Assembly: GCA_001899315.1 (NCBI GenBank)
Contig: MOYA01000003.1
Location: 37,357 to 86,330 of the forward strand
From: Candidatus Obscuribacter phosphatis
GTDB taxonomy: Bacteria; Cyanobacteriota; Vampirovibrionia; Obscuribacterales; Obscuribacteraceae
DNA length: 48,974 nucleotides
Direction of reading: 5' to 3'
Position numbers and translations under genes: made by a program. The notes beneath the pieces were generated by a model, which had not been told where the DNA came from, made no database searches, and saw only the letters and a list, made by a program, of their open reading frames with translations. This document shows, one piece after another, positions 25,217 through 41,515 of this stretch. How positions within the stretch are numbered: position 1 is the stretch's first letter; each line of letters opens with the position of its first letter.

Positions 25217-26542
25217 TTAACTCTTTGCCACAGCCAACTCTACAGTAAAAGTGGCACCGGCGCCTGGCACCGAAGTGAGGCTAATATTGCCGCCGTGACG
25301 CTCCACCGTTGCCTTGACGATACTAAGACCGAGACCGCAACCGCCCAAATTGCGAGAACGCGAACTATCAACCCGATAAAACCGTTCAAAGACGCGCGCC
25401 TGACTCTCGACTGCAATACCGGGACCATCGTCGGCAACAATCAGCTTAACCACAGAACGCCCCTCATCATAGGCAATCTTTAATGTGACATGCCCAGCCG
25501 GTCGCGAATAATTGACTGCATTGGAAAGCAAATTGAGCAACATCCCTTGCAGAGCATCGAGATTGCCGCGCACTTTCAGAGCCAGATACTCCACTTCACA
25601 CTCTACGTTAAAGCTGATACCGCGACTAAGAGCCAACTGCCTAGTGGCATCACAAATCGAATCAATCACCTGACTGATACTGAGCTCTTCTTCTAGATAA
25701 GTATACTGAGGCGATTCCAATCGACTGAGTACAATCAGGCTCTGACCAAGATTTTTCATGCGATTGGTGGAGCGCTCAATAATCTTGAGCAAGCGCGAGA
25801 TCTCGGCAATTTGCAGACTTTGTTGCTCCGTCACTTTCTTATCAGCAGAAGACTCTTCCAACTCAGCCGAGATGGTCTGCAAGCTTGCTTCAATAACCGA
25901 TACCGGTGTATTAATCTCATGAGCTGCGTCCATGACAAACTGCCGCATCAAGCTCATAGCCGCTTCCACCGGCTTGACAGCATTGCCGGCAAACCACGAA
26001 CCGCACATGGCTACAGATAGAGCCAGAAAGGGCGTAAGAGCCAACATGGTCAGCACTATCTGCTTGAGGGCCTCGTCCCGCTGTTTGACTGAGACCTGCA
26101 CTTGTAGGTAGCCAATTGACTTATTGCCTTCATAAAGATCGGTATAGAAAGAGCGCAAAAGCAAAGGCGCAGACTTGGCATCAGTGCCGGACAAAGTCAT
26201 TTTTTCTTGCACATTGCCAAAAACCAGACGCTTCACTCCGGCAGGACCAAACTCTTCAAGCAAGTTCTTCTCTTTATCAAAAACTTGAATGGTAGACAAA
26301 AGCTGGTCATGCCTGAGAGCCACCCGCCTGGACCAGTTCACCAGGGACGGTTTGCCGGCGCTAATCTCTACAGCCGGCAAGGCACCATTGGCCACATCGT
26401 GCAGCTCTTCATCTAAAGAGGCATCAAGTTTATTGGCGAACATAAAGATGGCGACACTGCCACCTAGAAAATATAAGGCAACAAAGAGCAAAACGAACTG
26501 CGCCGTTAGTCTTTTGCGCAGCTTTAGTTCGGTATTAGGCAT
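25217..26542 (-). CDS. Sensor histidine kinase of a two-component pair
   Basis: 441 aa from ATG 26542; the ATG overlaps the stop of the response regulator (ATGCCTAA), so the pair is translationally coupled. Two membrane segments (about 13-35 and 165-185) flank an exported sensor region of about 130 residues. The cytoplasmic part has an H-box with His208 in DAAHEINTPVS (unusual next to the common SHELRTPL), an N-box LLNLLSNAVNYS, and G-boxes DDGPGIAV and GGCGLGLSIVK. It is a membrane sensor for an unknown signal. The pair follows the SulP gene on the same strand and may be co-transcribed with it. Confidence 0.93.
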   Translation of the reverse strand: MPNTELKLRKRLTAQFVLLFVALYFLGGSVAIFMFANKLDASLDEELHDVANGALPAVEISAGKPSLVNWSRRVALRHDQLLSTIQVFDKEKNLLEEFGPAGVKRLVFGNVQEKMTLSGTDAKSAPLLLRSFYTDLYEGNKSIGYLQVQVSVKQRDEALKQIVLTMLALTPFLALSVAMCGSWFAGNAVKPVEAAMSLMRQFVMDAAHEINTPVSVIEASLQTISAELEESSADKKVTEQQSLQIAEISRLLKIIERSTNRMKNLGQSLIVLSRLESPQYTYLEEELSISQVIDSICDATRQLALSRGISFNVECEVEYLALKVRGNLDALQGMLLNLLSNAVNYSRPAGHVTLKIAYDEGRSVVKLIVADDGPGIAVESQARVFERFYRVDSSRSRNLGGCGLGLSIVKATVERHGGNISLTSVPGAGATFTVELAVAKS

Positions 26543-27215
26543 TATCTGGACCAAGCTTATAGCCCACACCATATACAGTGGCGATAATCGAGCTCATGCC
26601 TTCGCTATCAAGCTTTTTGCGCAGACGAGTTACATGACCACGCACTGTATCCAAAAGAGCATCAGTATCCGATTCCCAGACAGAGGCCAATAACTCCTCG
26701 GCTGAAAAAACCTGATTGGGATGACGCACTAAAAACTCTAAAAGTCTAAACTCTTTAGGCAAAAGATGCACTTCCTCGTCACCTTTAAGAACCCGGAATT
26801 CATGCGGATCTATAGTCAAATCTCTAAACTTCAAGACATCAGAAACCGGCGAATGATTGCGGCGCAAAACAGCTCTCACTCTGGCTGCCAGTTCTTTCAG
26901 CTGGAAAGGCTTGGTGAGATAGTCGTCAGCGCCGGCATCAAGACCTACTTCTTTGTCATCGACATGAGAGCGGGCCGTGATCATAATCACCCCTGCCGAG
27001 CCGCCGCCTTTGCGATACTTCTTAAGAATCTCCAGACCATCCATGCTGGGCAACATCAAATCGAGCAATACCACGTCATACTTGCTGGTTTCCATCTTGA
27101 TTAGAGCATCGATACCGTCCGCTGCAATCTCCACCAAATGATGGTCTTTAACCAGCCAACCCTTTACAAGGTCAGCGAGGTCAACTTCGTCTTCGACTAT
27201 GAGTATCTTTGCCAT
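26535..27215 (-). CDS. Response regulator, OmpR/PhoB family
   Basis: 226 aa, the usual length. Receiver domain with phospho-acceptor Asp52 in LLDLMLPSMDG and Lys in YLTKPFQLKEL, then a winged-helix DNA-binding domain (about 130-222) with LLPKEFRLLEFLVRHPNQV and TVYGVGYKLGP. It should control transcription from sites it shares with its partner kinase. ATG start. A possible -10 TAGAAT lies in the 95 bp between it and the SulP gene, so it may have its own promoter as well as read-through. Confidence 0.95.
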   Translation of the reverse strand: MAKILIVEDEVDLADLVKGWLVKDHHLVEIAADGIDALIKMETSKYDVVLLDLMLPSMDGLEILKKYRKGGGSAGVIMITARSHVDDKEVGLDAGADDYLTKPFQLKELAARVRAVLRRNHSPVSDVLKFRDLTIDPHEFRVLKGDEEVHLLPKEFRLLEFLVRHPNQVFSAEELLASVWESDTDALLDTVRGHVTRLRKKLDSEGMSSIIATVYGVGYKLGPDNA

Positions 27216-27310: not shown

Positions 27311-28996
27311 CTAGCGCTTGCGCTCCAAACGCCTGCTACCCTGGGGATGGTCCGAGACCGAACTCAATTTCTCCAAAGCGACGAAGCAAACTTTGCCGCC
27401 TTCATGCTCATAATCTTGCCTAAACTCAGCCAAGTGCTCCATGACCGTATGATCAATAAATGTAGTGGCACTAAAATCAATAAAGACCTGACCACCGGTC
27501 TTTATCTGATCGAGAAGATTCTTGATGCAGAAATAATTTGAAAAGACAATAGCACCATCCATATGCAGATAGTGGTCTCCCTCAGCGCCATCTTCCAAAT
27601 AGGCAGTGGCCTTGAAAAGCTCAGAAGGCTTGACGCCGCGGAAGAGATGCAACAATAGCTTGAGGGCGATGCCGCTAAAGACGCCTATTAGAAGGTCGGT
27701 TGCGAGAGTGACAAAGATTGTACTGACAAAAATCACCGTCTGCTCGTAACCAATTGAATGGGTCTCTTTAAAGACCTTAGGAGAGGCCAATCTGAAACCG
27801 GTAAAGATAAGCAGAGCGGCAAGAGCAGCCAATGGAATCTTGTTGAGTAGGGCAGAGGCTAAAGCCACAAACAAGCAAAGAAAAAGACCATGATAGAAAT
27901 TGGAAAAGCGCGTGCGCGCACCACTGGCGATATTAGCGGTGCTTCTGACAATCTCGGCAATAATAGGCAAGCCGCCCAGCCCGGCTGATACCATCGAGCC
28001 CAAACCAACGGCACAGAGGTCTTTACTGAGATTGGCTTTTCGTTTGAACGGATCGAGCTTGTCAACGGCCGCACAAGAAAGCACAGTTTCAACCGACTGC
28101 ACAAAACTGATACTGAGTACGCAAAGCCAAAAGCGCGGCATTCTGATTGCAGAAAAGTCTGGAAAGGCAAAACAATGACTGAGATCTGAAGGCACACGCA
28201 CCAGCAACTTGTCAGGCACAAGCCTAAATGTATGCCCCAAGAGCTCATAAGTCTTAGTATCAGTCAGAAAAGCAGTCATCAAACTAGCAGTCAAAACCAC
28301 CCAGAGCGGTGCCGGTATCGCTTTAAGCGGCGCAAATCGAATATGCGGATGGATAATCAAAATTATCAAACTAACCAAACTGACAAGCAATATAAATGGA
28401 TTGAGATCGGCTAGAAGATGCGGTAACTGATGAAATATCTCAAGCGGTTCTCTTATCTTGATTTGAGAGCCAAGAAAAGTTGGTAGCTGTTTGATGATAA
28501 TGACGATGCCGATGGACGCCAACATGGCATGCACCACAGTAGCTGGAAAGTACTTACCGATTTCAGCCGAACGCATACGTCCAAGCAAAAATAGAATAAA
28601 GCCTGAAACAACTATAGCCGATAGCGTGGAGTGATAGCCTCGACTGCCGCCGCCAAGCGCTTCACAGGCTGAAATTACTACAACAATCAAGCCGGCAGCC
28701 GGCCCATTGATGGTGACAAAGGAGCCACTCAACTGGCTGACCACGACACCACCGATAGCGGCACTAACCAAACCGGCAACAGGAGGCAGCCCGGAAGCCA
28801 TAGCAATGCCAAGAGACAGAGGCAGTGCGATCAGAAAGACAATGAAGCCCGACACTATATCGTATCTAAAATTTTGGATCAGTCCCAGAAAACCATCGCT
28901 TGGAACAGCCCGTTCCGGCGCATCAGGAATAGTGATAGCCTTAAATTGACCTGTGACGCTGGCTTGAATAAATTCCCAGGTTTCTCGCGCAGTCAT
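27311..28996 (-). CDS. SulP family inorganic anion transporter with STAS domain
   Basis: 561 aa from ATG 28996 (an in-frame TTG is at 29023). N-terminal membrane domain of about 10-14 spans with SulP signatures: SGFIVFLIALPLSLGIAMAS, GSFVTINGPAAGLIVVVISA and GLGGLPIIAEIVRSTANIAS. A cytoplasmic STAS domain occupies about 450-555, with VFIDFSATTFIDHTVMEHL. SulP members carry sulfate, bicarbonate or dicarboxylates, often Na+-driven; BicA-type bicarbonate transporters belong here. Which anion is moved cannot be told. It is divergent from the Ehr-type operon, with the four-half-site palindrome between them, and is followed by the two-component pair. Confidence 0.92.
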   Translation of the reverse strand: MTARETWEFIQASVTGQFKAITIPDAPERAVPSDGFLGLIQNFRYDIVSGFIVFLIALPLSLGIAMASGLPPVAGLVSAAIGGVVVSQLSGSFVTINGPAAGLIVVVISACEALGGGSRGYHSTLSAIVVSGFILFLLGRMRSAEIGKYFPATVVHAMLASIGIVIIIKQLPTFLGSQIKIREPLEIFHQLPHLLADLNPFILLVSLVSLIILIIHPHIRFAPLKAIPAPLWVVLTASLMTAFLTDTKTYELLGHTFRLVPDKLLVRVPSDLSHCFAFPDFSAIRMPRFWLCVLSISFVQSVETVLSCAAVDKLDPFKRKANLSKDLCAVGLGSMVSAGLGGLPIIAEIVRSTANIASGARTRFSNFYHGLFLCLFVALASALLNKIPLAALAALLIFTGFRLASPKVFKETHSIGYEQTVIFVSTIFVTLATDLLIGVFSGIALKLLLHLFRGVKPSELFKATAYLEDGAEGDHYLHMDGAIVFSNYFCIKNLLDQIKTGGQVFIDFSATTFIDHTVMEHLAEFRQDYEHEGGKVCFVALEKLSSVSDHPQGSRRLERKR

Positions 28997-29049
28997 TAAT
29001 GCTACCGACTTAGTAAAGAGCAAAGCTATTTACACGTTAGCAAGCAAAA

Positions 29050-29162: not shown

Positions 29163-31181
29163 ATGTTATTCGATTTAATGGCCCCACCAAATTGTATTCT
29201 TCTCTACGGACTTGCCTGCCTTGCCTGGACAATCGGCGTAGCCTTCACAATTATAGCCGACTTACTAAAAACAAAACTTTCCAATCGGTTAGCATTAGCC
29301 CTCACTGCCGGTGGTGCGCTGTCAGCTGGTATGGGCGCCATAGGCAACTATCAAGCGGGCATACCGGTAAATTTCACAGCCCTCAAGCACTTCGGTCTTA
29401 CCACTCTCAGCTTCACCGGCGACAATCTTGCCATTCCCTTTATTCTCTTGCTAACTCTTGTGGCATTGGCATCGACCTTGTCAACAAGAGACTTAATCGA
29501 CAGTACCCACAATAAAGAAGGGCATCGCTTTCAAAGTAATCATTACTATCGACTGATACTGCTCTTGCTCTTAGGCACCTTGCTTGTTCTGCTCAGCGCT
29601 AATGCCATAACTTTTTTGGTTTTCTGGGAAGTGATGAGCGTGGCCGCAGCCAGCCTGATTACCAGCGAGCATGTGAGACACCGCGCCCAGAGAGCCGCTC
29701 TTGCTTATATCACCGCCAGCAGACTAGCAACGGCTCTTTTAACCGGTGCCTTTCTCTGGATGTATCATCAAAGCGGCACCTTCGACTTCGCCAGCTGGCA
29801 ATTTCAAAGCAATTCCACCTTTCCTGCCGCACTCTTAATTTTGCTGGCAGTCTGCATAAAAGCCGGCATATGGCCCGCCCATGGCTATCTGCCCCAGAGT
29901 TATGCCGAAGCACCGGGGCCTGCCGCCGCTCTCATATCGGGCGTGATCGGCAAGACGGCCATCTATTTGCTCTTGCGTCTATTGGTGCTGGGCAATTGTC
30001 AACACAGCTGGGTAATCTACATCGCCTTGGCCCTTGGCACCATATCATGCATTTGGGGCATTCTCTTTGCTCTGGTCGAGCGAGATTTGAAGCGCCTCCT
30101 AGCCTTTAGTTCGGTCGAGAACATGGGGCTCATTATCATCGCCATCTCTCTTTCTATGCTGGCACGCAAAGAAGGTCTGCCTGTCATTGCCGCCATAGCA
30201 GTAACCGGCACACTCTTTCATGCCTTCAACCACGGCGTCTTCAAATCGCTGCTCATGCTTGCCGCCTCGACAATAGACAAAAAGGCGCATACTCGCGACT
30301 TGGCACAATTGGGTGGTCTAGCCAAACGTCTGCCCTGGACCATGCTCGCCTTCTTTATCGGCTCAGTGGCCATCTGCGCCCTGCCTCCATCAAATGGCTT
30401 TGCCAGCAAATGGCTCATTTATCAAGCCTTTTTCCGCATGGCAATTGAATCTGTCCCCTTGCACGACCGGGCTATTTCTTTAGCCATGCTCGGCATCCTC
30501 TCTTTTGTGGGCGCGCTTAGTCTAGCTTGTTATACAAAGGCAATAGGCATTGCCTTTCTGGGACGCCCACGCTCTAAACAGGCGCAGTTCACACCCGAAA
30601 CCGGCTTGAGCGGCTCCGCCATGGCGCTCGTCATTCTCTCAGCCATCTGTGTTTTCTTAGGCACCTCTGCTGGTATCTGCCTGAGAGCAATTACACCGGC
30701 ATTGGCTGAGCTAAACGGCTCCGGAATAGACGCCGCCAATCTCTTTCCTGTGGCAGTTGCCCAGTTGAGCCTGTTCGGACTAATCACCGCCAGTATCATC
30801 TACCTTTGCATTCTCGGCCCCCGTTCAACCGGCATGAAAACCTATATAACCTGGGACTGTGGCTATGGTCCGCTTTCAGCTCGTGCTGAAGAAACCGGCT
30901 CCAGTTTCTCTCATCCAATTGGGCGCATATTCTCGCAAGTTTTGCAATTGAAAGTTGAAACCAATATTACCGGCAGAGACCGTCGACATTTTCCAGAGGG
31001 CATCAAAGTAGAAACCCGCATGACACCCTTTATTGAAACGACTGTCTATAAGCGTTTCATCGAAATGGTCAACTTTTCTTCGCTCACCCTGACGAGACTG
31101 CAAACAGGCAGTATCCACGTGCATTTGCTTTATCTCTTTTTGACCATGATCGTCTTGGTTTATTTGGGCACCGTACTATGA
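29163..31181 (+). CDS. hyfB: Hydrogenase-4 subunit B-like antiporter-type membrane subunit (Ehr complex)
   Basis: 672 aa with many hydrophobic segments; homologous in layout to NuoL/NuoM and HyfB, the H+/Na+-pumping subunits of complex I-like machines. Seen: FLVFWEVMSVAAASLI (conserved Glu of TM5), IKAGIWPAHGYLPQSYAEAPGPAAA (conserved Lys and the PxHxxLP signature) and FKSLLMLAASTI. It should be the main ion-translocating channel. First gene of the operon; its stop overlaps the ATG of the next gene (ATGA). The start is ATG 29163 without a Shine-Dalgarno, and ATG 29178 is also possible. Confidence 0.9.
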   Translation: MLFDLMAPPNCILLYGLACLAWTIGVAFTIIADLLKTKLSNRLALALTAGGALSAGMGAIGNYQAGIPVNFTALKHFGLTTLSFTGDNLAIPFILLLTLVALASTLSTRDLIDSTHNKEGHRFQSNHYYRLILLLLLGTLLVLLSANAITFLVFWEVMSVAAASLITSEHVRHRAQRAALAYITASRLATALLTGAFLWMYHQSGTFDFASWQFQSNSTFPAALLILLAVCIKAGIWPAHGYLPQSYAEAPGPAAALISGVIGKTAIYLLLRLLVLGNCQHSWVIYIALALGTISCIWGILFALVERDLKRLLAFSSVENMGLIIIAISLSMLARKEGLPVIAAIAVTGTLFHAFNHGVFKSLLMLAASTIDKKAHTRDLAQLGGLAKRLPWTMLAFFIGSVAICALPPSNGFASKWLIYQAFFRMAIESVPLHDRAISLAMLGILSFVGALSLACYTKAIGIAFLGRPRSKQAQFTPETGLSGSAMALVILSAICVFLGTSAGICLRAITPALAELNGSGIDAANLFPVAVAQLSLFGLITASIIYLCILGPRSTGMKTYITWDCGYGPLSARAEETGSSFSHPIGRIFSQVLQLKVETNITGRDRRHFPEGIKVETRMTPFIETTVYKRFIEMVNFSSLTLTRLQTGSIHVHLLYLFLTMIVLVYLGTVL

Positions 31182-32134
31182 GCATCGAGACAAATACAGG
31201 CGAAATATTAAAGAACAGCGGCACTTTCCTCGCCAGCCTGATAATCTTGCCGCCGCTCACCATAGGTATTTTGCGCAAGACCAAAGCCCGCTTTCAAAAT
31301 CGTATCGGCGCTCCCTTGCTGCAACCATTCTTCGATCTGGCCAAACTCTTACAAAAAAATGAGACTGTCAGCGAACATGCCAGCTGGCTCTTTCGTATTG
31401 CCCCTTGCATCAATCTCACAGTCATGCTTTTGCTAAGCTTGCTCATTCCATGGACAAGTCTCACGGCTATTCCCCACGGCATAATCTCAGCCGATCTTTT
31501 TCTGATTATCTATCTGCTTGGTCTAGCAAGATTTTTCACAGTCTTAGCCGCCCTCGACACTGGCTCGGCCTTTGGCGGCTTCGGCGCCAGTCGAGAGGTC
31601 ACCCTGGCTCTATTGGTTGAGCCGGCGGTTATGCTCTGCTTGGCTTGCTTGGGCGTGAGAGCGGGAACCAGCGACCTCAGCCAGGTATTCTCATACGAAG
31701 CAACCCGTCTCACTGGACAATATGGACTCTGGTTCTTAGCCGGTTGTGGACTATTTCTATCAAGCCTGGTGGAACTATCGCGCATGCCGGCCGATGACCC
31801 GACCACACACTTAGAATTAACCATGGTGCATGAAGCCATGATCTTAGAAAATTCCGCCGCCAACCTCGCCCTGGCCGAAATAGGACACTATATCAAAGTG
31901 GCTCTGCTGCTTGGTCTATCCTGGCAATGCTTCATGCACTGCTTGCCGAGCCATTTGTTGAGCGACTGGACCGCCCGTGCCATTGCCTCCACCGGCGGTA
32001 TTATATCTTTGGCTCTTTTTATTGCCTTGATCGAAAGCCTGGCAGTCAAGCTCAGATGGACCAAACTACCCGAGTTTATTGCCTACGCAGTAGCCATGGC
32101 AATATTCTCTTACTTAATCGCCCTGTCAGTCTAA
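31178..32134 (+). CDS. hyfC: Hydrogenase-4 subunit C-like membrane subunit (NuoH family)
   Basis: 318 aa, eight or so membrane segments. It matches NuoH/HyfC/EchB: the QNRIGAPLLQPFFDLAKLLQ loop near the N-terminus and MPADDPTTHLELTMVHEAMI in the middle, including the acidic residues thought to couple redox change to ion movement. This subunit forms the junction between the membrane arm and the peripheral redox module. It overlaps hyfB by 4 nt; hyfE follows after 13 bp. Confidence 0.92.
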   Translation: MSIETNTGEILKNSGTFLASLIILPPLTIGILRKTKARFQNRIGAPLLQPFFDLAKLLQKNETVSEHASWLFRIAPCINLTVMLLLSLLIPWTSLTAIPHGIISADLFLIIYLLGLARFFTVLAALDTGSAFGGFGASREVTLALLVEPAVMLCLACLGVRAGTSDLSQVFSYEATRLTGQYGLWFLAGCGLFLSSLVELSRMPADDPTTHLELTMVHEAMILENSAANLALAEIGHYIKVALLLGLSWQCFMHCLPSHLLSDWTARAIASTGGIISLALFIALIESLAVKLRWTKLPEFIAYAVAMAIFSYLIALSV

Positions 32135-32147
32135 TTTAGGTGAAACT

Positions 32148-32804
32148 ATGCAACTAAGTACATTTGAAGCGCTGGCAATGCTCTCGGCAGTACTAGGTAT
32201 TCTTATCTTGGGCACAACCTTACTGCGCACCAATCTTAGCTTTTATCGCTTTCACACTTTAGCCATAGTGGCGCTCACAGTCTGGATTGGTCACATCACC
32301 AAAGAGGCACATCTTTACATAGTGGCGGCGGCAGTTCTGCTTGTCAAAGTACTTTTCATTCCCTCTTTTTTAGGTTGGGTGATGAAAAAGGCTGAAGTAG
32401 GCAGCGATAAACAAGCCTTTATCGCGGCGCCGCTGTCAATGCATCTAGGCGCCATCATGCTTGGCGTTTCCTATCTATTGAGTTCGCGTATACCCGGTCT
32501 TGAGGGCGTGCACCAAGAGGGCTCGCACCTGGGCTCGACGGCAGCCATGTCTATACTCTTTACCGGGGTTCTCTTGATGCTGACAAGACGAGCCGCGCTC
32601 AGTCAGATACTAGGATTTTTGGTAATTGAAAACGGTATCTATCTCTTTGCCGTCACCCAGACCCATGGCATGCCCATGCTGGTGGAAATGGGACTTTTGC
32701 TGGAAGTACTCGTCGGTGTAATGATTTCAGGCTTACTGCTCTTCAACATCAAGAAAAGCTTTGAACATATCGACGTATCACAATTGACCGATCTGAAAGA
32801 CTAG
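32148..32804 (+). CDS. hyfE: Hydrogenase-4 subunit E-like membrane subunit (NuoK-like)
   Basis: 218 aa, about six to seven membrane segments, small for this class but normal for HyfE. Fits the NuoK-related small membrane subunit that bridges NuoH-like and antiporter-like parts. A clear Shine-Dalgarno TAGGTGA lies 6 nt before the ATG, in the 13-bp gap after hyfC. Identification rests on its order in the operon and on the segment LVIENGIYLFAVTQTHGMP, which carries the Glu of NuoK-type proteins. Confidence 0.82.
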   Translation: MQLSTFEALAMLSAVLGILILGTTLLRTNLSFYRFHTLAIVALTVWIGHITKEAHLYIVAAAVLLVKVLFIPSFLGWVMKKAEVGSDKQAFIAAPLSMHLGAIMLGVSYLLSSRIPGLEGVHQEGSHLGSTAAMSILFTGVLLMLTRRAALSQILGFLVIENGIYLFAVTQTHGMPMLVEMGLLLEVLVGVMISGLLLFNIKKSFEHIDVSQLTDLKD

Positions 32805-32812
32805 AACCAATA

Positions 32813-34234
32813 ATGAACGAACTCGGACTACTATTTACCATTCCGTCGCTGACCGCGCTGCTTAGTCTTTTCATCAAAAAGACGGCGATCACAGGCAAGC
32901 TCTGCGCCCTCGCCGCTTGGCTGCAACTGGCTCTAGTAATCTCGGTTCTCTTGCCTATTCTCACCGGACACAGTACCAGCATCAGCTTTGCCCCCGGCCT
33001 CATTGTCGACAAGCTAGGCTCTTATTTTATTTTGCTCACTACCTTTGTTGTAGCTTGCGCCCTCACCCATGCCGACTACTTCTTTCAAGCCCAGGCCGTT
33101 ATCGGAGAACCCTATAAAGACTCACGCCTAAAACTATTCTATGCTGTGGTCAATATATTTCTCATGGCCATGACCTCGGTATTTCTTTGCGATAGCCTCG
33201 GCTATTTATGGATCGCCATAGAAGCCACCACTCTGTCATCAGCACCACTGGTCTACTTCGAACGCAACAAGCATGCCCTGGAAGCCACCTGGAAATATCT
33301 TATCGTCTGCTCGGTGGGCATCGCCTTCGCTCTCTTGGGAACAGTCTTTATCTTTGCCGCCAGCCAGCGTTCAGATCTCGGCTCAGGCACCTTGAACGTC
33401 TCCGAACTGATAGTATCGGCCAAAACCCTGAGTTTCCCCCTCCTGCGCCTGGGCTTCATCTTCTGCCTCTTAGGTTATGGCACCAAAGCCGGTATCTTTC
33501 CTTTACACAGCTGGTTGCCAGACGCCCATTCCGAAGCCCCGGCACCAGCCTCAGCCATGCTCTCCGGCTCACTGCTCAACTGCGCCCTTTTCGGCATCTG
33601 GAAGGCTTCGACGGTGATCACCGCAGCCAAACCGGAAGCCCCTGCCTTTCATTTGGTGGCAGTCATGGGTGCCCTCACCGTTGTGGCGGCGAGCATCTTT
33701 ATTATTCGCCAACACAACCTCAAGCGACTCTGGGCTTATTCGAGCATTGAGAATGTCGGGCTCATGGTCTTCGCTATCGGGCTGGGCTCGGGTCCGCTCT
33801 TTTTCCTACAGGCCCTCAACCACAGCTTAGCCAAGGTCAGTCTCTTCTTGATCTCGGGTAACATAGTGCAAGCAGCCGGCACCAAGAAATTATCAAAGCT
33901 GCATGGACTCTTAGAAAATTCGCCTTTCTGGGCAGGCGCCCTAGCCTTGGCATCACTGGCGGTGGCAGGAGCGCCGCCCTTCGGTTCCTTCATGACCGAA
34001 ATGTCGCTGCTTACTCTTAGTCTTGGTCATAAATACTACATTCTTGCCGCCTTAATCAATGTGGCACTGGCTGTCAGCTTCCTGGGCATACTAGCCCATA
34101 CCGGCAAAGTCATTTTCGGCGCCGGCAAGCCCGATTTCAAAGTCTTCAGCGAAAGAAGAGCGGCGCTAGTACCGATGTTACTTGTCGCCTCCACCCTAGC
34201 CATAGGATTGCTTGTCAATTATGAAAGTAGATAA
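32813..34234 (+). CDS. hyfF: Hydrogenase-4 subunit F-like antiporter-type membrane subunit (Ehr complex)
   Basis: 473 aa, about 14 membrane segments, a second NuoL/M/N-like subunit. Seen: YLWIAIEATTLSSAPLVYF (TM5 Glu), TKAGIFPLHSWLPDAHSEAP (conserved Lys and the PLHSWLPDAH signature, nearly canonical) and NHSLAKVSLFLISGN. It should carry a second proton or sodium path in the membrane arm. It ends 14 nt inside hyfG, so the two are coupled. Confidence 0.92.
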   Translation: MNELGLLFTIPSLTALLSLFIKKTAITGKLCALAAWLQLALVISVLLPILTGHSTSISFAPGLIVDKLGSYFILLTTFVVACALTHADYFFQAQAVIGEPYKDSRLKLFYAVVNIFLMAMTSVFLCDSLGYLWIAIEATTLSSAPLVYFERNKHALEATWKYLIVCSVGIAFALLGTVFIFAASQRSDLGSGTLNVSELIVSAKTLSFPLLRLGFIFCLLGYGTKAGIFPLHSWLPDAHSEAPAPASAMLSGSLLNCALFGIWKASTVITAAKPEAPAFHLVAVMGALTVVAASIFIIRQHNLKRLWAYSSIENVGLMVFAIGLGSGPLFFLQALNHSLAKVSLFLISGNIVQAAGTKKLSKLHGLLENSPFWAGALALASLAVAGAPPFGSFMTEMSLLTLSLGHKYYILAALINVALAVSFLGILAHTGKVIFGAGKPDFKVFSERRAALVPMLLVASTLAIGLLVNYESR

Positions 34235-35711
34235 AGAAAGCATCAGCCTGGCTGACTTAAAGGAAATCCTGGGTAAAGAAACCCACCGCATCGGTCATTT
34301 CACTTCTCTAGACGGGGGGCAGTTGCTCGCCCTTTTGTTAGATCCAAGTCAGGGAGACAAAGGCGTCAAGCTGTACGAAATCGCACTGGAAAACGGGATC
34401 AATTCATATCCCAGCCTGACAATCAAACATCCACAGTTGCACTGGTTCGAAAGAGCCCTCTTTGACATGTTCGGCATCATACCTAGCGGGCATCCTCGCT
34501 TGAAGCATCTCTATCTGCATGAACCTTACGAGCGTAATTTCTTTCCACTCAGAAGGGTTCCCTTGCCCGAGAACTTCAATTCGCCCATCGACCGCCGCTT
34601 TCATTTTCTCGAGGTAAAAGGCGAAGGCATCTATGAACTGCCCGTGGGGCCCATTCATGCCGGGGTGATTGAACCGGGACATTTCCGCTTTAGCTGCCTG
34701 GGTGAGACAATAATCAACCTTGAAATTCAGCTTGGTTATTTGCATCGCGGCGTCGAAAAACGACTAACCGAAGTACCGCTCAAGCACATGCATTTTCTCG
34801 CCGAAGCAGTAGCGAGCGATACATCTACGGCAAATGCCTTGGCGCACGCCGAAGCGATAGAATCGCTGGCAGAAATAGAGGTGAGCGAACGCAGCAAATA
34901 TCTGCGTTCTATTGCCCTTGAGATAGAAAGACTGGCGATGCACATAGTCGATGTCGGCGGCATGTCCACCGATATTGGTCTACTAGGCATAGCCTCGGCC
35001 ATGGGCAGACTGAGAGGCACGGCTTTAGGCATGGGCGATTTATTGACCGGCTCTCGCTTTTTGCGTGGCTTTATTGTGCCGGGCGGTGTAAGACTACCGG
35101 TCAATAACGGTCTATTCAAGCTGAAAGGTCAAGTGGCCAGACTGAGACACGAGCTAAAAGAACCAATCGCCATGTTCTTAGATAATCAGATGGCACTAGA
35201 GCGCATGCGCGAAGTCGGTGTACTAAAAGCCTCGTTGGCAAAAGAATTCGGCATGGTCGGACCAGCCGGGCGGGCGAGCGGCCAAGACTATGATGTCAGA
35301 CGGGCTTTTTCACATGCCGCCTATCCCAATATGGCACCGCCCACGGTGACAGCCCGAGAGGGCGACATCTTGGCGCGCGAAATGGTGCGCATTAAAGAAA
35401 TCTGGTCAACTCTCGATACCATCGACCGCCTCCTCGACAATCTGCCTGAGGGCGAAACCACTGGCGCCGATTTCAGCAAAGTAAGGCTCAAGCCCGACTC
35501 ATTTGCCGTTGGCATTGTCGAAGCTTTTAGAGGCGAGTTGCTGCACTTGGTGGCCACCGATAAAGAGGGCAAAGTGGCGCGCTATGCCGTCAAGCATCCT
35601 AGTTTCAATAATTGGACGGCGCTTGCCATCGCCATCAGAAACAATCTCATAGCCGACTTCCCGCTCTGCAACAAAAGCTTTTCGCTCTCTTACAGCGGCA
35701 ACGACCTATAG
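34221..35711 (+). CDS. hyfG: Hydrogenase large-subunit-like protein without nickel ligands (NuoC/D fold, Ehr type)
   Basis: 496 aa from ATG 34221. The N-terminal about 110 residues resemble NuoC (LHWFERALFDMFGI, SGHPRLKHLYL), the remainder NuoD/HyfG/EchE. True [NiFe] hydrogenases have RxCGxC near the start of the catalytic part and DPCxxC at the end. Here the first place reads AEAVASDTSTANALA (about 194-208) with no Cys, and the C-terminus reads PLCNKSFSLSYSGNDL with no CxxC. A NiFe site therefore cannot form. That matches the described energy-converting-hydrogenase-related (Ehr) complexes, whose electron partners are not known. The HRGVEKR motif and the helical core are retained. Very likely not a hydrogenase. 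Confidence 0.9.
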   Translation: MKVDKESISLADLKEILGKETHRIGHFTSLDGGQLLALLLDPSQGDKGVKLYEIALENGINSYPSLTIKHPQLHWFERALFDMFGIIPSGHPRLKHLYLHEPYERNFFPLRRVPLPENFNSPIDRRFHFLEVKGEGIYELPVGPIHAGVIEPGHFRFSCLGETIINLEIQLGYLHRGVEKRLTEVPLKHMHFLAEAVASDTSTANALAHAEAIESLAEIEVSERSKYLRSIALEIERLAMHIVDVGGMSTDIGLLGIASAMGRLRGTALGMGDLLTGSRFLRGFIVPGGVRLPVNNGLFKLKGQVARLRHELKEPIAMFLDNQMALERMREVGVLKASLAKEFGMVGPAGRASGQDYDVRRAFSHAAYPNMAPPTVTAREGDILAREMVRIKEIWSTLDTIDRLLDNLPEGETTGADFSKVRLKPDSFAVGIVEAFRGELLHLVATDKEGKVARYAVKHPSFNNWTALAIAIRNNLIADFPLCNKSFSLSYSGNDL

Positions 35712-35720
35712 GAAAGAAAT

Positions 35721-36503
35721 ATGCTGGAACTCTTAGGTTATCTTCTTAAACAGGGTGTGGCCACAAGTCGAGAAAACTTTCCCGACTTGCCTGAACATGT
35801 GCGGGGTTTACCTATAGTGACAGACAAAGACTGCGCCGAGACCTGCAACCAAGGCACAGCCCTATGTGCAGACCTTTGTCCCACCCAGGCCATCGACCTG
35901 AGCGAAGCAAACAAGCCCAAACTAGACCTAGGCAAATGTATCGCTTGCGGTCTCTGCACCGATGTCTGCCCCTCGGGCACCCTGGTCAACGATAGACGCA
36001 CCAGAACAGCAAGAGCCAGTCGCGAAGCCTTGATCTCAACAAGAGAAAGCCCGGCACAAACGGCGGCGACAAAAGACTCAAAAGAAACAAAACCTGCCAA
36101 AGCCGGACTTTTTAAGCGGTCTTTGGCAGTAAGAGTGGTTTCCACCGGCTGCAGCGCCTGCGATATGGAAATAGGAGCCAGTCTCAATCCTATTTTTGAC
36201 ATGGAAAGATTTGGTGTGACTGTGGTGGCTTCTCCGCGCTACGCAGACGCACTGGTGGTCACCGGACCAGTGCCCTTAGGCATGCGGGCGGCACTACTGA
36301 GCTGCTACGAGGCCATGTCTAGCCCTCGTTTGGTGGTGGCGCTGGGCACCTGCGCTATATCGGGTGGTCTGCACGGCGGCGGCTACAGTCAGGCAGACGG
36401 CGTCGATAAGATTTTGCCGGTAGATATTTACATCCCCGGCTGCCCACCACATCCATGGAGTATCATTGACGGCATGTTGGCGGCAAAGTCCTTAAAGACT
36501 TGA
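35721..36503 (+). CDS. hyfI: Ferredoxin-fused NuoB/hydrogenase small subunit-like protein (Ehr type)
   Basis: 260 aa joining a two-cluster ferredoxin-like domain (about 35-95) to a NuoB-type domain (about 138-257). The second ferredoxin motif is canonical (CIACGLCTDVCP); the first is irregular, C-x3-C-x6-C-x3-CP in CAETCNQGTALCADLCP. The NuoB part keeps four Cys for the proximal [4Fe-4S] cluster: GCSACDME, GTCAISGG and PGCPPHP. Electrons could therefore pass through this subunit even though the large subunit lacks nickel. In hydrogenase-4 these are separate genes (HyfH and HyfI). Ribosome site AGGAAAG, 9-bp gap after hyfG. Confidence 0.9.
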   Translation: MLELLGYLLKQGVATSRENFPDLPEHVRGLPIVTDKDCAETCNQGTALCADLCPTQAIDLSEANKPKLDLGKCIACGLCTDVCPSGTLVNDRRTRTARASREALISTRESPAQTAATKDSKETKPAKAGLFKRSLAVRVVSTGCSACDMEIGASLNPIFDMERFGVTVVASPRYADALVVTGPVPLGMRAALLSCYEAMSSPRLVVALGTCAISGGLHGGGYSQADGVDKILPVDIYIPGCPPHPWSIIDGMLAAKSLKT

Positions 36504-36510
36504 GGTGTGC

Positions 36511-36828
36511 ATGCGCTTTACCAAACTTTGGTCGACCTTGGCGAGCGGCCCTGGGCTGGCGCCGACCTATGAAAGATTCGGTCCGGTAAGTCGAGAAATG
36601 CTGCCCGAACTGGAGCGGATGAGAGTTGATGAAATTCTCAATGACCAGAGTTTTCATGACATGCTTGATAGCCCGGTCACCAAAATGGTGCGCGACATGG
36701 CGCTCAATAGCTTGACGGTTGAATATGAAGACGGCACAACCAATACTGTGCGTTTCATCAAAGGCGACACCTCAGAGAGCATCGACTTTCTAATCAAGCT
36801 GACTAGACGAGTAGCCTTAGAAAGCTAA
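36511..36828 (+). CDS. Small unknown protein at the end of the Ehr operon
   Basis: 105 aa from ATG 36511 with AGG 5 nt upstream, or GTG at 36505 (107 aa). It lies 7 bp after the hyfI-like stop. It is soluble, with no Cys clusters or membrane spans. The helical N-terminal half has PTYERFGPVSREMLPELERM, and the end has a beta-hairpin-like TVEYEDGTTNTVRFIKGD. I do not recognise a family. Placement in the operon suggests an accessory or assembly role, which is inference. Confidence 0.68.
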   Translation: MRFTKLWSTLASGPGLAPTYERFGPVSREMLPELERMRVDEILNDQSFHDMLDSPVTKMVRDMALNSLTVEYEDGTTNTVRFIKGDTSESIDFLIKLTRRVALES

Positions 36829-36837
36829 TTATTCTCT

Positions 36838-39800
36838 CTAATTCTCACCGGTTCTCTTTATTGGTGCCAAGTCGGCTCCAAAGACCTTAAGCAAGGCTGG
36901 TATAACAATGAGAGTGAGACAGGTAGAGGTTATCATGCCGCCAAGAATAACTATGGACAGGGGCTTCTCCAGTTCTCGCCCGGCGCCCCCCAGCACGGCA
37001 ATCGGCAGGACGCCCAAGGCGGCGGTCAATGCCGTCATAAGCACCGGGCTCAGTCTCTCCAACGCGCTCTGCACAATTACTTCTTCAAAGTCACCCTGAG
37101 ATGTGCTCAGTAAGTGGTTAAAATGCGTCACCAACATAATGCCGTTACGCGTAGAAATGCCAAACAAAGTGATGAAGCCAACAAGCGAGCCCACACTAAT
37201 AATGGCGCCCCCGAAGAGGACGGCCCAAACCCCGCCCACTAATGCAAGCGGCAGGTTAGCCATGATCAAGGCGGCCGCTCTAACCGAATTAAAAGCCAAG
37301 CTAAGCAAAACAAGCATACCCAAAAGCGCCATTGCTGACAATATCAACAACTGTTTGGTGGCGGCTTCTTGCGCCTCAAACTGACCGCCATAAATTATGT
37401 AATAACCGCTCGGCAGTTTCACTGCACCGGCAATTTTAGCGCGGGCTTCTTCTATAACGCCGCCTAGGTCTCGCCCAGAAACATTCGCCTGCACATAGAC
37501 CCGACGCGAAATATTCTCATGGCTAATAGTATTAGGACTCTCACCTTCTTTTACTTCCGCTAAAGAACCCAAGGGCACCTTGGCACCAGAGGGTGTATCG
37601 ATAAGCACAGATTGAATTAGAGTGAGCTTGTTTCTATATTCGGGCTGCAACCAAACATAGATATCAAAGGTCTTCTGCCCTTCTAGTACCTGTGCAACCG
37701 CCACCCCCTTAAATGCTGCTTCGATTGATGCCGAGAGCTGCTTGACTGTGACACCATATCTGGCGGCAGTACCGCGGTCGATCTTGATTGAAATCTGCGG
37801 CACTGGAATAATCGGCTCGACATGAACATCAACGGCGCCTTTTATGGTCTTCATCACTCTTTCGACCTCTTTTGCTTTTTCATGCAAGATATCGAGATCG
37901 GCACCAAAGATTTTGATGGCAATAGCCGCATTTACACCAGATAAAGCATGCTCCATGCGATGCTGTAGATAAGAACCGGAGTCGGCAATGAGACCCGGAA
38001 CATGGGCAAACTCATGCCGTACATGATAGAGAATATCTCTTTTGTTCTTGCTTTCCGGTTGCAAGCGAATATCAAACTCACTAAAATTTCCCGCCCCAAA
38101 GTCTTCACCACCCTCGGCTCGTCCCGCCCGTTGGCTGGCGGCAACGACATCGTGCTGTTTGATAAAGTGACTGATTAACTCTTTACCGATGGCTGTAGTC
38201 GTATGCAAACTCGTACCAGGCATAGAACTGGCCACAACGATCAGATTGTTCTCATCGAACTCTGGCAGAAACTCACTACCCATAACGGTCAAAGGCACCA
38301 GCGAGGCAAAGAAAAGGCAAACAGCACTGAGAATTACCGTTCGGGGGCGAGCCAAACTAAACTTGACCACTGGTAGATAAAGCTGCTTCAAATACTCAAC
38401 CACCTTGGTTTCACCTTTGGCGACATTCTTTGGCAAGCGCAATAACAAATAACAAAGGGCTGGAGTGACAGTCAGAGCAACTGCAAGCGAAGAGAAAAGA
38501 CTGACCAGATAAGCATAGGCCAATGGGCTAAAGATCTTGCCCTCGAGCCCGCCTAACGACAAAACCGGCAAAAAGACCAAGGCAACAATGAACGTAGCAT
38601 AGACTACCGAACTTCTTACTTCGAGCGAGGCCTGATAAACCACCTTAAAGGCATTCTGAGGTGGATTGGCAAGCTTATTTTCACGCAGTCTTCTATAGAT
38701 ATTTTCCACATCGACAATTGCGTCATCAACCACCTCACCAATAGCAATAGCCAAGCCGCCCAGAGTCATTGTATTGATGGTATAACCCTGAAACTTGAGA
38801 ATAATAATGGCTGACAATAGTGACAGAGGAATTGCCGTAAGAGAAACAAAGGCTGTACGCCAATTCTGTAAGAATATAAAGAGAATGAGCACCACCAAAG
38901 CACCACCCAAGATGACTGCCTCGCAGACATTTCTAATCGCCAACTCAATAAAGTCGGCTTGCCTAAAGGTGATCACAGTACGTACGTCGGCAGGAAAACT
39001 GGCCTTGAGCTCGGTCAGCGCCTGCTCAAGATTGCGCGTCAAATCGAGGGTATTCGACCAAGGTTGTTTGAAGACTGTCAAAACCACTCCGGGATGTCCG
39101 TCCACGATACCATCGCCGATCTGAAACTCAGGACCGATCTTGACAGTGGCAACATTCTTGAGTAAAACAGGCAAACCATTGCGACTAGTGATAACACTCT
39201 CGCCAATCTCTAAGGGCGAAGAAACTCGACCCAGCCCCCTAATCAATTGTTCCTTCTCGTCTGTCCTCAATATGCCGCCGGCCGCATTGATACTACTGCC
39301 GCCGGCGGCCTCAAGCACCTGCGCGAGAGTGACATCATATTGTCTGAGTTTGTTTGGATCGACAAGAACCTGATATTGCTTTACTTCACCGCCAATTACA
39401 ACCACATTAGAGACGCCGCCGACAGCTAATAGGCGCATACGAATCGACCAATCAGCCAAGGTGCGCAGTTCCATCGGCGTAGTTGACCCGGTGCTATAGA
39501 GTCCAATTTTGAGAATATCACCGGCAGCAGTGGTAATGGGCGCCAGTACAGGTTCTTTCACCCCGGCAGGCAATTTTCCTCGGGCGCCTTGCAGCTTTTC
39601 TGATACCAACTGCCTGGCAGTAAAAATGTTAGTACCGTCATGAAAAATAATAGTGATCACCGACAAACCGATGGTTGAAATAGACCTAACTACTTTCACA
39701 TTGGCGGTGCCGTTTAAGCCCACCTCAAGAGGTCTGGTCACCACATTCTCCACCTCTTCCGGCGCAAAGCCAGGTGCCTCGGTCAAGACCACAACCTGAA

Positions 39801-39933
39801 TGGGGGCGAAATCAGGAAACACATCGACGGGCATCTGAAAAGTAGAATAAATGCCGAGCAGAAGCCAGATGAGAGCAAGCAAGTTGACTACCCAGCGATT
39901 ACTTATCGACCAACGTATGAGTTGATTGAGCAT
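36838..39933 (-). CDS. Heavy-metal efflux RND transporter (CusA/CzcA family)
   Basis: 1031 aa, full length for HME-RND pumps of the inner membrane. Twelve membrane segments with two large periplasmic loops; FPDFAPIQVVVLTEAPG and SRPxx-type loops are as in CusA/CzcA. The TM4 signature reads GEVVDDAIVDVENI (about residues 397-410), with two acidic residues for proton uptake. It differs from the DFGxxVDG of zinc/cobalt CzcA pumps, so the metal is not assigned. The ATG is 12 bp after the adaptor stop, with AGAGGTGG as Shine-Dalgarno. The adaptor, the pump and a Cys-rich small protein form an operon; no outer-membrane factor (CusC/TolC type) is present here, so one must be encoded elsewhere. Confidence 0.94.
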   Translation of the reverse strand: MLNQLIRWSISNRWVVNLLALIWLLLGIYSTFQMPVDVFPDFAPIQVVVLTEAPGFAPEEVENVVTRPLEVGLNGTANVKVVRSISTIGLSVITIIFHDGTNIFTARQLVSEKLQGARGKLPAGVKEPVLAPITTAAGDILKIGLYSTGSTTPMELRTLADWSIRMRLLAVGGVSNVVVIGGEVKQYQVLVDPNKLRQYDVTLAQVLEAAGGSSINAAGGILRTDEKEQLIRGLGRVSSPLEIGESVITSRNGLPVLLKNVATVKIGPEFQIGDGIVDGHPGVVLTVFKQPWSNTLDLTRNLEQALTELKASFPADVRTVITFRQADFIELAIRNVCEAVILGGALVVLILFIFLQNWRTAFVSLTAIPLSLLSAIIILKFQGYTINTMTLGGLAIAIGEVVDDAIVDVENIYRRLRENKLANPPQNAFKVVYQASLEVRSSVVYATFIVALVFLPVLSLGGLEGKIFSPLAYAYLVSLFSSLAVALTVTPALCYLLLRLPKNVAKGETKVVEYLKQLYLPVVKFSLARPRTVILSAVCLFFASLVPLTVMGSEFLPEFDENNLIVVASSMPGTSLHTTTAIGKELISHFIKQHDVVAASQRAGRAEGGEDFGAGNFSEFDIRLQPESKNKRDILYHVRHEFAHVPGLIADSGSYLQHRMEHALSGVNAAIAIKIFGADLDILHEKAKEVERVMKTIKGAVDVHVEPIIPVPQISIKIDRGTAARYGVTVKQLSASIEAAFKGVAVAQVLEGQKTFDIYVWLQPEYRNKLTLIQSVLIDTPSGAKVPLGSLAEVKEGESPNTISHENISRRVYVQANVSGRDLGGVIEEARAKIAGAVKLPSGYYIIYGGQFEAQEAATKQLLILSAMALLGMLVLLSLAFNSVRAAALIMANLPLALVGGVWAVLFGGAIISVGSLVGFITLFGISTRNGIMLVTHFNHLLSTSQGDFEEVIVQSALERLSPVLMTALTAALGVLPIAVLGGAGRELEKPLSIVILGGMITSTCLTLIVIPALLKVFGADLAPIKRTGEN

Positions 39934-39945
39934 AGATAGCCACCT

Positions 39946-41457
39946 CTATGCCTTACTCTGCATTCTTTTGAAAACCAGCGACGCCACTAAAGCGATAACG
40001 GCAAAAAGAAAGCCCAAAGCAAATCCAATCACTATCTCAGCCCTTGGATTGACCGCAGCAGTCTCCAGTTCTTCATGCTGCTTGTGCGCCTCATGCTTCT
40101 CGCCTTGATGTTTCTGCCCGGCATCCGGTTTGAGAATAGACTGCGCCAGCAACTGACTAGCACCACTAACTACAACCTGCTCGCCTTCATGCAAACCAGA
40201 GAGAATCTCGACTTGCCCAGCGGCCTTGCTCCCCAGCTTCACAGCCAAAGGCTCAAAATGACCTTCTTGGGCGTGGTGAGCATAAAGGTAAGGACGATCT
40301 TTATAGTAAACAATTGCTGCTTCCGGCACCGCCAGTACGCTCTGTGCACCAACACCTTCACCCAGAACTATTTGTGCGGTAACAAACATGCCGGGACGCA
40401 ATACCCCTTGCTTATTTTCAGCCACTATACGCACATGCATGGTCTTGGTAGTTGCATCGACTACCGACCCGACAGATGAGATCCTTCCGGCGATTCGCTC
40501 TTTGGATGGAGTCTCAAGAATGACCGCCTGACCCTCTTTCACCTGGGGAATCTGTTCTTGATAAATATCAACCATGACCCAGATAGGAGAAAGATTGACT
40601 ATGGAATAGACAGTTCGGCTTGGGTCAATTCTCTCTCCTAAACTTATATCTCTTTTGATGACACAACCACTGACAGGAGCCTTGATTGCCAAATCAGATG
40701 TCACCTTGCCTGTGCGCAGAGCTTCATTCACAGCCGCCTCGTCGATGCCCATAATTGACAATTGCCCCTTAGCGGTTTCAATAATGACCGAGCGCTGCTT
40801 CTCAAGCAAAGCCACATCTTGAGCCAACCGCTGGTTCAATGTTTCCAGACGCACAACCGCTGAATCGAAGGCATTCTTAGCTTCTTGATAGCTTTTGCGG
40901 GCACTGATTCCCTCTTGCAAAAGTGAATCTTCTCTCTCAAAGGCAAACTTTGTCAGCTGCACCTGCTTGGTTTGCAACTTAATATCACCTTCGTACTGAG
41001 ACCTTACTTTCGCTATCTCGGCATCGAGCCGAGCCCGGTCATTTAGCAGTTGAGTCAGACTACCAGCCACCTCCATACTGTAGACTACAGCTAAAGTCTG
41101 CCCTCGCCTGACAATATCTCCTTGCTTTGCCAGCACCGATCTAACTACACCGCCAACAGTAGAGGTGACGCTGAAAGCTTGGGTCTCATCAGCCTGCACC
41201 TCACCGGTAGCATTGAGCGCTTCTTTGAGTACACTTTTGCTTGCCAGCGCAGTTCTAATCTCAAGAGCCCTTACTCCTTGCTCGTCAGCACTGACTTCAG
41301 CCGGCTGTAAAGCTGCTGCATCCTCAAGAAAGGCTTCACTTTCGCCGCTATGGGCCAATATCAATGAAGGAAAAGCAAGGAACAAAGCCCAAACTAGACT
41401 AAATAGAAAAAGCAACTTAGATTGATTCACCCCTGAAAGGGGAATGCACTGACGCAT
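39946..41457 (-). CDS. RND efflux periplasmic adaptor subunit (CusB/CzcB-like) with His-rich tail
   Basis: 503 aa from ATG 41457 (an in-frame TTG at 41490 is less likely). N-terminal signal or anchor, then the usual adaptor: barrel-sandwich hybrid (GGVVRSVLAKQGDIVRRGQ), long coiled-coil hairpin (about 150-270) and beta-barrel (VFVTAQIVLGE). It bridges the RND pump to an outer-membrane channel. It has an odd C-terminal end: after the barrel comes a His-rich linker (KHQGEKHEAHKQHEE, about 450-465) and a hydrophobic span (about 477-497, IVIGFALGFLFAVIALVASL). Adaptors are normally anchored only at the N-terminus. The His stretch suggests metal binding. Confidence 0.9.
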   Translation of the reverse strand: MRQCIPLSGVNQSKLLFLFSLVWALFLAFPSLILAHSGESEAFLEDAAALQPAEVSADEQGVRALEIRTALASKSVLKEALNATGEVQADETQAFSVTSTVGGVVRSVLAKQGDIVRRGQTLAVVYSMEVAGSLTQLLNDRARLDAEIAKVRSQYEGDIKLQTKQVQLTKFAFEREDSLLQEGISARKSYQEAKNAFDSAVVRLETLNQRLAQDVALLEKQRSVIIETAKGQLSIMGIDEAAVNEALRTGKVTSDLAIKAPVSGCVIKRDISLGERIDPSRTVYSIVNLSPIWVMVDIYQEQIPQVKEGQAVILETPSKERIAGRISSVGSVVDATTKTMHVRIVAENKQGVLRPGMFVTAQIVLGEGVGAQSVLAVPEAAIVYYKDRPYLYAHHAQEGHFEPLAVKLGSKAAGQVEILSGLHEGEQVVVSGASQLLAQSILKPDAGQKHQGEKHEAHKQHEELETAAVNPRAEIVIGFALGFLFAVIALVASLVFKRMQSKA

Positions 41458-41515
41458 AGAAAGCACCCACCAATAAAAAAACAATGACAAAGCAGTGATA
41501 TGCTGCTTGCAATGT

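Follow-up and report, generated by a model that had tools for sequence, protein, structure and literature searches.

An Ehr complex with a replaced nickel site in Candidatus Obscuribacter phosphatis and its association with inorganic-carbon genes

A stretch of 48,974 nucleotides from the 5.5 Mb, eight-contig genome of Candidatus Obscuribacter phosphatis, a member of the Obscuribacteraceae (Melainabacteria), carries (as the window hereafter) a hydrogenase-4-like gene cluster, hyfB-hyfC-hyfE-hyfF-hyfG-hyfI. Judged by its subunits, this cluster encodes an energy-converting-hydrogenase-related (Ehr) complex, a known family of which the window is an ordinary member as to the loss of nickel ligands. 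What is new here is the association of Ehr with inorganic-carbon genes and the repeated loss, across the family, of the ligands of the proximal iron-sulphur (Fe-S) cluster. We see an even chance that Ehr is an ion-translocating complex coupled to the handling of CO2/HCO3- rather than of hydrogen.

The large subunit, HyfG, is encoded by an intact open reading frame (ORF) of 496 codons, from an ATG at 34221 (or possibly a TTG at 34212) to a stop at 35711. In an alignment with E. coli HyfG and group-4-type relatives in which the nickel motifs are retained, it reads EAVASDT (residues 195-201) where RVCGIC is expected (consensus [ED]RxCGxC), and LSYSGNDL followed by the stop (residues 489-496) where DPCYSCTDR is expected (consensus DPCxxCxxR). 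The four nickel-binding Cys in two CxxC motifs that mark group 4 [NiFe] hydrogenases are absent; in addition, HyfG stops at the end point of mature hydrogenase subunits and has no C-terminal maturation peptide. The HyfG-HyfI module cannot bind NiFe. The original prediction had read the gene order as HyfB-C-E-F-G-I, noted the loss of both CxxC pairs and concluded that no NiFe centre can form; the ORF map and Pfam matches bear out the first point and the alignment the other two. It had also expected automatic annotation to call the protein a hydrogenase, which did not happen: Pfam gives the complex I 49-kDa subunit (E 1e-37), while the nickel-hydrogenase model scores 20.6 bits, below its cut-off of 25.8. 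Nor are Cys pairs hidden behind a frameshift, the error it had allowed for. The same motif loss recurs in a sibling genome of 95% identity and in every other Obscuribacterales Ehr examined, and because some 35 related genomes show this pattern, a sequencing error or frameshift is excluded.

The residues that took the place of the ligands are strictly conserved. Across 106 aligned Ehr large subunits from many phyla, Asp200, Asn484-Lys485-Ser486, Tyr491 and Asp495 are present in all 106 and Ser490 and Gly493 in 105 each, while the former nickel-ligand Cys have become Ala/Ser, Thr/Ser, Ser and Gly. Glu151 and His154, which we take to occupy the Glu-gate (proton-path) position of hydrogenases, are likewise kept in 106/106. 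Because of this strict conservation, the nickel site is seen as re-purposed under constraint; it is not decayed. An AlphaFold model of HyfG (pLDDT 90.5, pTM 0.92) has formate hydrogenlyase HycE as its closest fold (7z0s_E, TMq 0.89), with complex I next; the model is of low confidence at residues 145-156 and 493-496, which line the site in hydrogenases.

That the complex is of the Ehr type, as the original prediction had suggested, follows from the group-4-like set HyfB/C/E/F/G/I in one cluster and from a large subunit that lacks NiFe ligands and groups with other Ehr. A tree of 113 large subunits placed the window HyfG with its Obscuribacterales relatives; it is 61% identical to that of a Candidatus Obscuribacter sp. 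MP5G1 locus, the closest named among the matches listed. The family is widespread, with at least 580 confirmed relatives. Ehr without NiFe ligands are described from Melainabacteria and Margulisbacteria (PMC6349859), the candidate phyla radiation (CPR; PMC7304191), comammox Nitrospira (PMC10284858), ammonia-oxidising archaea (PMC10432482) and Geobacter, as EhrA-EhrL-EhrS, GSU0739-45 (PMC7894505); there, their function is termed unknown or a role with formate is speculated upon. The Ehr of Geobacter, CPR, Nitrospira and Melainabacteria share with the window the type of subunit set and the absence of both CxxC motifs, whereas the window adds a ferredoxin domain fused to HyfI, a SulP gene running divergently and the genes of a two-component pair.

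The motif loss had thus already been published for Ehr of Melainabacteria, CPR and Nitrospira (PMC6349859, PMC7304191, PMC10284858), although the original prediction had suggested a novel complex, provided that the organism had neither hyp maturation genes nor another hydrogenase. It has both. A genome search located HypD at C2:329638, with a hyp set adjoining, and at C1:887302, together with two other hydrogenases for them to serve: one [NiFe] large subunit at C2:336767, with RICGIC...DSCLVC, and a second at C1:2472109, with DPCNTC. The same genome also encodes a complex I cluster with a canonical NuoD. The available text of PMC6349859, PMC7304191, PMC10284858 and PMC7894505 describes neither an inorganic-carbon association nor repeated Fe-S loss from the small subunit, and in the open-access literature we found nothing linking Ehr to SulP, Dab or bicarbonate.

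Loss of the proximal-cluster Cys was seen in several parts of the family: in CPR (L086, L107, L124, L128), where neither a ferredoxin domain nor a ferredoxin gene in the cluster was seen; in a metagenome-assembled genome (MAG; L079); in Planctomycetales (L112, L160, L161, L165; e.g. NAAEEAD / GAEAISGG / IPGWPPHP); in Opitutae (L152, L190, L196); and in the Melainabacterial families f7-f9. Relatives of the Cys-less Planctomycetales and Opitutae subunits retain these Cys, and by our own count at least five losses are required on the large-subunit tree. In HyfB, HyfF and HyfC the charged residues do not vary among E. coli Hyf, the window and the Fe-S-less forms; those kept in HyfB are E156, K233, K264, K310 and K459. 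Since the Fe-S ligands were lost repeatedly while the ion-translocating arm remained intact, and since the CPR forms have no redox centre, Ehr need not be a redox enzyme. The ferredoxin-domain Cys are intact in L079, L112 and L152, so that a complete absence of clusters is confined to the CPR and f7-f9 forms. The replacements in Planctomycetales and Opitutae are similar, with IPGCPPHP turned into IPGWPPHP in both. In three of the CPR loci (L086, L124, L107), Ehr clusters lacking nickel and proximal Fe-S ligands adjoin F-type ATP synthase genes.

Families f7-f9 show a mirror-image form. In 13 genomes (L065, L066, L067, L074, L249-L257) the small subunit has no cluster, while the large subunit, encoded in its mature length, retains both Cys in its terminal NKSFNLCY[AS]C; the first Cys pair, read in L065-L067 and L074, is CGMC or CGLC. 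No HypD was found in these 13 genomes, several of them more than 90% complete, and for this reason a NiFe(CN)2CO centre is not expected there. Their neighbours include SulP (L074, L253), beta-carbonic anhydrase (L253, L257) and, adjoining the small subunit at most loci, a PF01184 gene of the acetate-transporter family.

The genomic association was measured within 9.5 kb of 38 Obscuribacterales HyfG loci, against an expectation from gene counts and genome sizes; the genomes compared are mostly MAGs. SulP genes were found 10 times where 0.43 were expected, and Pfam beta-carbonic anhydrases 8 times where 0.30 were expected. As controls from these genomes, 38 NuoD loci had neither gene in reach, and 41 HypD loci had one SulP and no beta-carbonic anhydrase. 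A second, divergent carbonic anhydrase-like family matches the beta-carbonic anhydrase profile (probability 96%) and keeps the Cys/His/Cys motif; taking it into account, SulP or a beta-carbonic anhydrase or its like occurs at 21/32 loci read, the two together at none. SulP stands near Ehr in at least three arrangements, and the linkage is not obligatory, because L039 is without SulP though its sister L040 has one. Further afield, the Planctomycetaceae locus L100 reads EhrG-EhrI-DabA-DabB-like-SulP, the SulP with a P-II domain (DabA: PF10070, E 1.8e-241); SulP adjoins Ehr in Planctomycetales L112, in Verrucomicrobia L134 and in the near-identical pair L142/L153, and beta-carbonic anhydrase does so in Desulfocapsa L097. 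The L142/L153 clusters come from MAGs named Bacteroidetes and Ignavibacteriales, a case of recent transfer or of binning error. For the window SulP, the best match among solved structures is 6ki1_A, presumably the cyanobacterial bicarbonate transporter BicA, and the SulP of the sibling genome shares 42% identity with the SulP-PII protein adjoining DabAB in L100.

Taking these observations together, we propose that the subunits would assemble into a complex whose membrane arm (HyfB, C, E, F) translocates H+ or Na+, and that this ion movement may be coupled, in one direction or the other, to CO2/bicarbonate handling, here with the divergent SulP permease. The analogy is with DAB (DabA-DabB) and the cyanobacterial NDH-1MS (CupA/B), where complex I-type ion-channel subunits are coupled to inorganic carbon; the association with inorganic-carbon genes is shared, whereas the window cluster has no carbonic anhydrase gene and no DabA-type zinc CO2-hydrating subunit, which stands beside EhrG/EhrI only in L100, and CO2 hydration by Ehr is conjectural. 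In the window, the complex may still be driven or gated by electrons by way of its ferredoxin-type and proximal Fe-S clusters; redox drive would be optional, with the Fe-S-less CPR and Melainabacterial forms running on an ion gradient. More doubtfully, the former NiFe site (Asp200 with Glu151/His154) might have become a CO2/HCO3- site, and ion flow through the complex I-type membrane arm might be linked to the hydration of CO2 or the movement of bicarbonate; Ehr would then, on the same rather improbable supposition, be non-redox or optionally redox, some lineages having no redox centre at all.

Several observations weigh against the carbon-coupled proposal. The window HyfI, like most of its family, keeps all four proximal Cys and the eight Cys of its ferredoxin domain, which favours electron transfer here; the original prediction had correctly counted the former and overlooked the fused two-cluster domain. 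Poisson figures for the enrichment overstate its significance because the Obscuribacterales loci are related, and outside Melainabacteria an inorganic-carbon gene is in reach at only about 7/79 Ehr loci. SulPs carry many anions, and HCO3- as the substrate here is suggested by genomic context and by a distant similarity. In Ehr, no residue that might catalyse CO2 hydration was identified. Finally, with acetate-transporter-family and ATP synthase genes as neighbours, what the loci have in common could be homeostasis of pH or weak acids, not carbon.

The Cys retained in the window HyfI speak for a redox-driven ion pump, in which a low-potential donor such as ferredoxin would pass electrons through the HyfI ferredoxin domain and the proximal cluster to an acceptor near the former nickel site, SulP and carbonic anhydrase neighbours being secondary users of the ion gradient. 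A precedent is Pyrococcus Mbx/Mbs, to which Ehr is likened by description (PMC6349859): group-4-like, without NiFe and energy-coupled, but with a redox role known for Mbx and none established for Ehr. Against such a pump stand the five or more proximal Cys losses with the complex retained, a cluster without a partner oxidoreductase, and a first ferredoxin motif that is eroded in L052, L055, L056, L064 and L068 and interrupted in the window relative to the sibling. Complex I itself (NuoB/C/D/H/K/L/M/N) has subunits homologous to those of the window, and NiFe is found in neither; the window cluster holds only the HyfB, C, E, F, G and I homologues, with no NuoE/F/G NADH module by ORF map and Pfam. 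The NuoD quinone ligands, which we take to be the His of GPQHPSTHG and the Tyr of DxxDY, lie in GPQHPATHG / DRVDYL in the organism's own NuoD, and at the aligned positions HyfG has GPIHAGVIEPGH / EAVASDT. By alignment both ligands are missing from HyfG; this also counts against the pump, and a complex I-type site for reducing quinone was rejected. Since several Ehr lineages dropped the proximal ligands yet kept the complex, and neighbouring genes suggest a link to inorganic carbon, the redox drive supposed by the original prediction is unsupported; we hold a pump of this kind to be possible, if improbable.

In another reading, Ehr would be an Mrp-like, gradient-driven cation/proton antiporter that serves pH homeostasis, HyfG/HyfI forming a cap with a structural or sensing role. 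This would fit the antiporter-type charged residues, invariant even in redox-free complexes, and neighbours (carbonic anhydrase, SulP, the acetate-transporter family, ATP synthase) that all suit pH control. The former active site, however, is conserved beyond what a cap needs (Asp200, Asn484-Ser486 and Tyr491 in 106/106), and the enrichment of carbonic anhydrase and SulP is specific, so that we consider it unlikely. The cluster can also be compared with E. coli hydrogenase-4 and formate hydrogenlyase (HyfB-I, HycB-G), with which it shares the membrane and soluble architecture (HyfG 29% identical); it differs in having no nickel Cys, C-terminal maturation peptide, HyfD, formate dehydrogenase or FhlA-type regulator. 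A formate dehydrogenase-Ehr module, in which formate oxidation feeds electrons to Ehr, has been proposed for Riflemargulisbacteria and Geobacter; it appears as a hypothesis in PMC6349859, and in Geobacter the Ehr subunits are present in abundance on formate (PMC7894505). However, a tblastn search with E. coli FdhF found formate dehydrogenase at 0/114 Ehr loci and none in the window, and Fe-S-less Ehr could not accept the electrons; this module is very improbable. A degenerate or mis-sequenced hydrogenase, with the loss of Cys pairs as its sole support, is scarcely credible and is refuted by intact ORFs, about 35 genomes and 106 Ehr sequences of many phyla.

The genes of the cluster lie on the plus strand, overlapping or closely spaced, and end in an orphan gene of 107 codons (Table 1). 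Divergent from hyfB, across a shared intergenic region of 139 bp, run the SulP permease gene, then a response regulator and a histidine kinase, an arrangement recovered by tblastn in L037, L038 and L040-L042, and in L039 without the SulP. HyfB and HyfF are the two Proton_antipo_M subunits by Pfam, and the Oxidored_q2 match of HyfE is weak. The orphan protein has no Pfam or NCBIfam match and was found only in L037 (96%) and L038 (56%). In HyfI, a four-residue insertion lies within the first ferredoxin motif (residues 43-48, about 35847-35864) relative to the sibling L037. Beyond the operon, genes named by eye as an RND-type efflux pump and a membrane-fusion protein occupy 36838-41490 on the minus strand; in relatives they are outside the Ehr operon. 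A regulator with HTH_17 and PTS-EIIA-like domains stands directly upstream of Ehr at 24 named loci (e.g. L134:4048-4737), which belong to Planctomycetes, Verrucomicrobia, relatives of Geobacter and others; in Melainabacteria and Rokubacteria this place is taken by ArsR-type regulators.

Table 1. Features of the Ehr cluster and its surroundings, in window coordinates.
Feature	Position	Strand	Remarks
Sensor histidine kinase	25217..26572	-	ORF; adjoins SulP/Ehr in near relatives
Response regulator	26535..27215	-	part of histidine kinase/SulP/Ehr block
SulP-family anion permease	27311..29023	-	PF00916 E 1.5e-50, plus STAS
HyfB-like antiporter-type membrane subunit	29163..31181	+	PF00361 E 7e-48; HyfB model 430 bits
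HyfC-like (NuoH-like) membrane subunit	31178..32134	+	PF00146 (NADHdh) E 4e-37
HyfE-like (NuoK-like) membrane subunit	32148..32804	+	hydrogenase 4 membrane subunit model E 3.7e-23
HyfF-like antiporter-type membrane subunit	32813..34234	+	PF00361 E 2.2e-44; HyfF models about 300 bits
HyfG/EhrL, fused 30-kDa-like and large (49-kDa-like) subunit without nickel ligands	34221..35711	+	PF00346, PF00329
Replaced first nickel motif, EAVASDTSTA, residues 195-204, invariant Asp200	34803..34832	+	
Replaced second nickel motif, PLCNKSFSLSYSGNDL, residues 481-496	35661..35708	+	without maturation tail
HyfI/EhrS small subunit, fused N-terminal ferredoxin domain	35721..36503	+	PF01058 (Oxidored_q6) E 9.8e-30; 4Fe-4S models also match
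Ferredoxin-domain [4Fe-4S] motifs, one with Cys 38/42/49/53, the other with Cys 73/76/79/83	35832..35969	+	
Proximal (N2-like) cluster ligands, Cys144, 147, 211, 241	36150..36443	+	
107-residue genus-specific protein	36505..36828	+	1 bp after hyfI

If Ehr handles inorganic carbon, and not H2 or quinones, many annotations as 'hydrogenase' and 'NADH dehydrogenase' would be wrong, and a complex I relative without the core redox chemistry would be a natural test of how the hydrophilic arm is coupled to ion pumping. The linkage to SulP, carbonic anhydrase and DabAB opens the question to simple assays of CO2 dependence.

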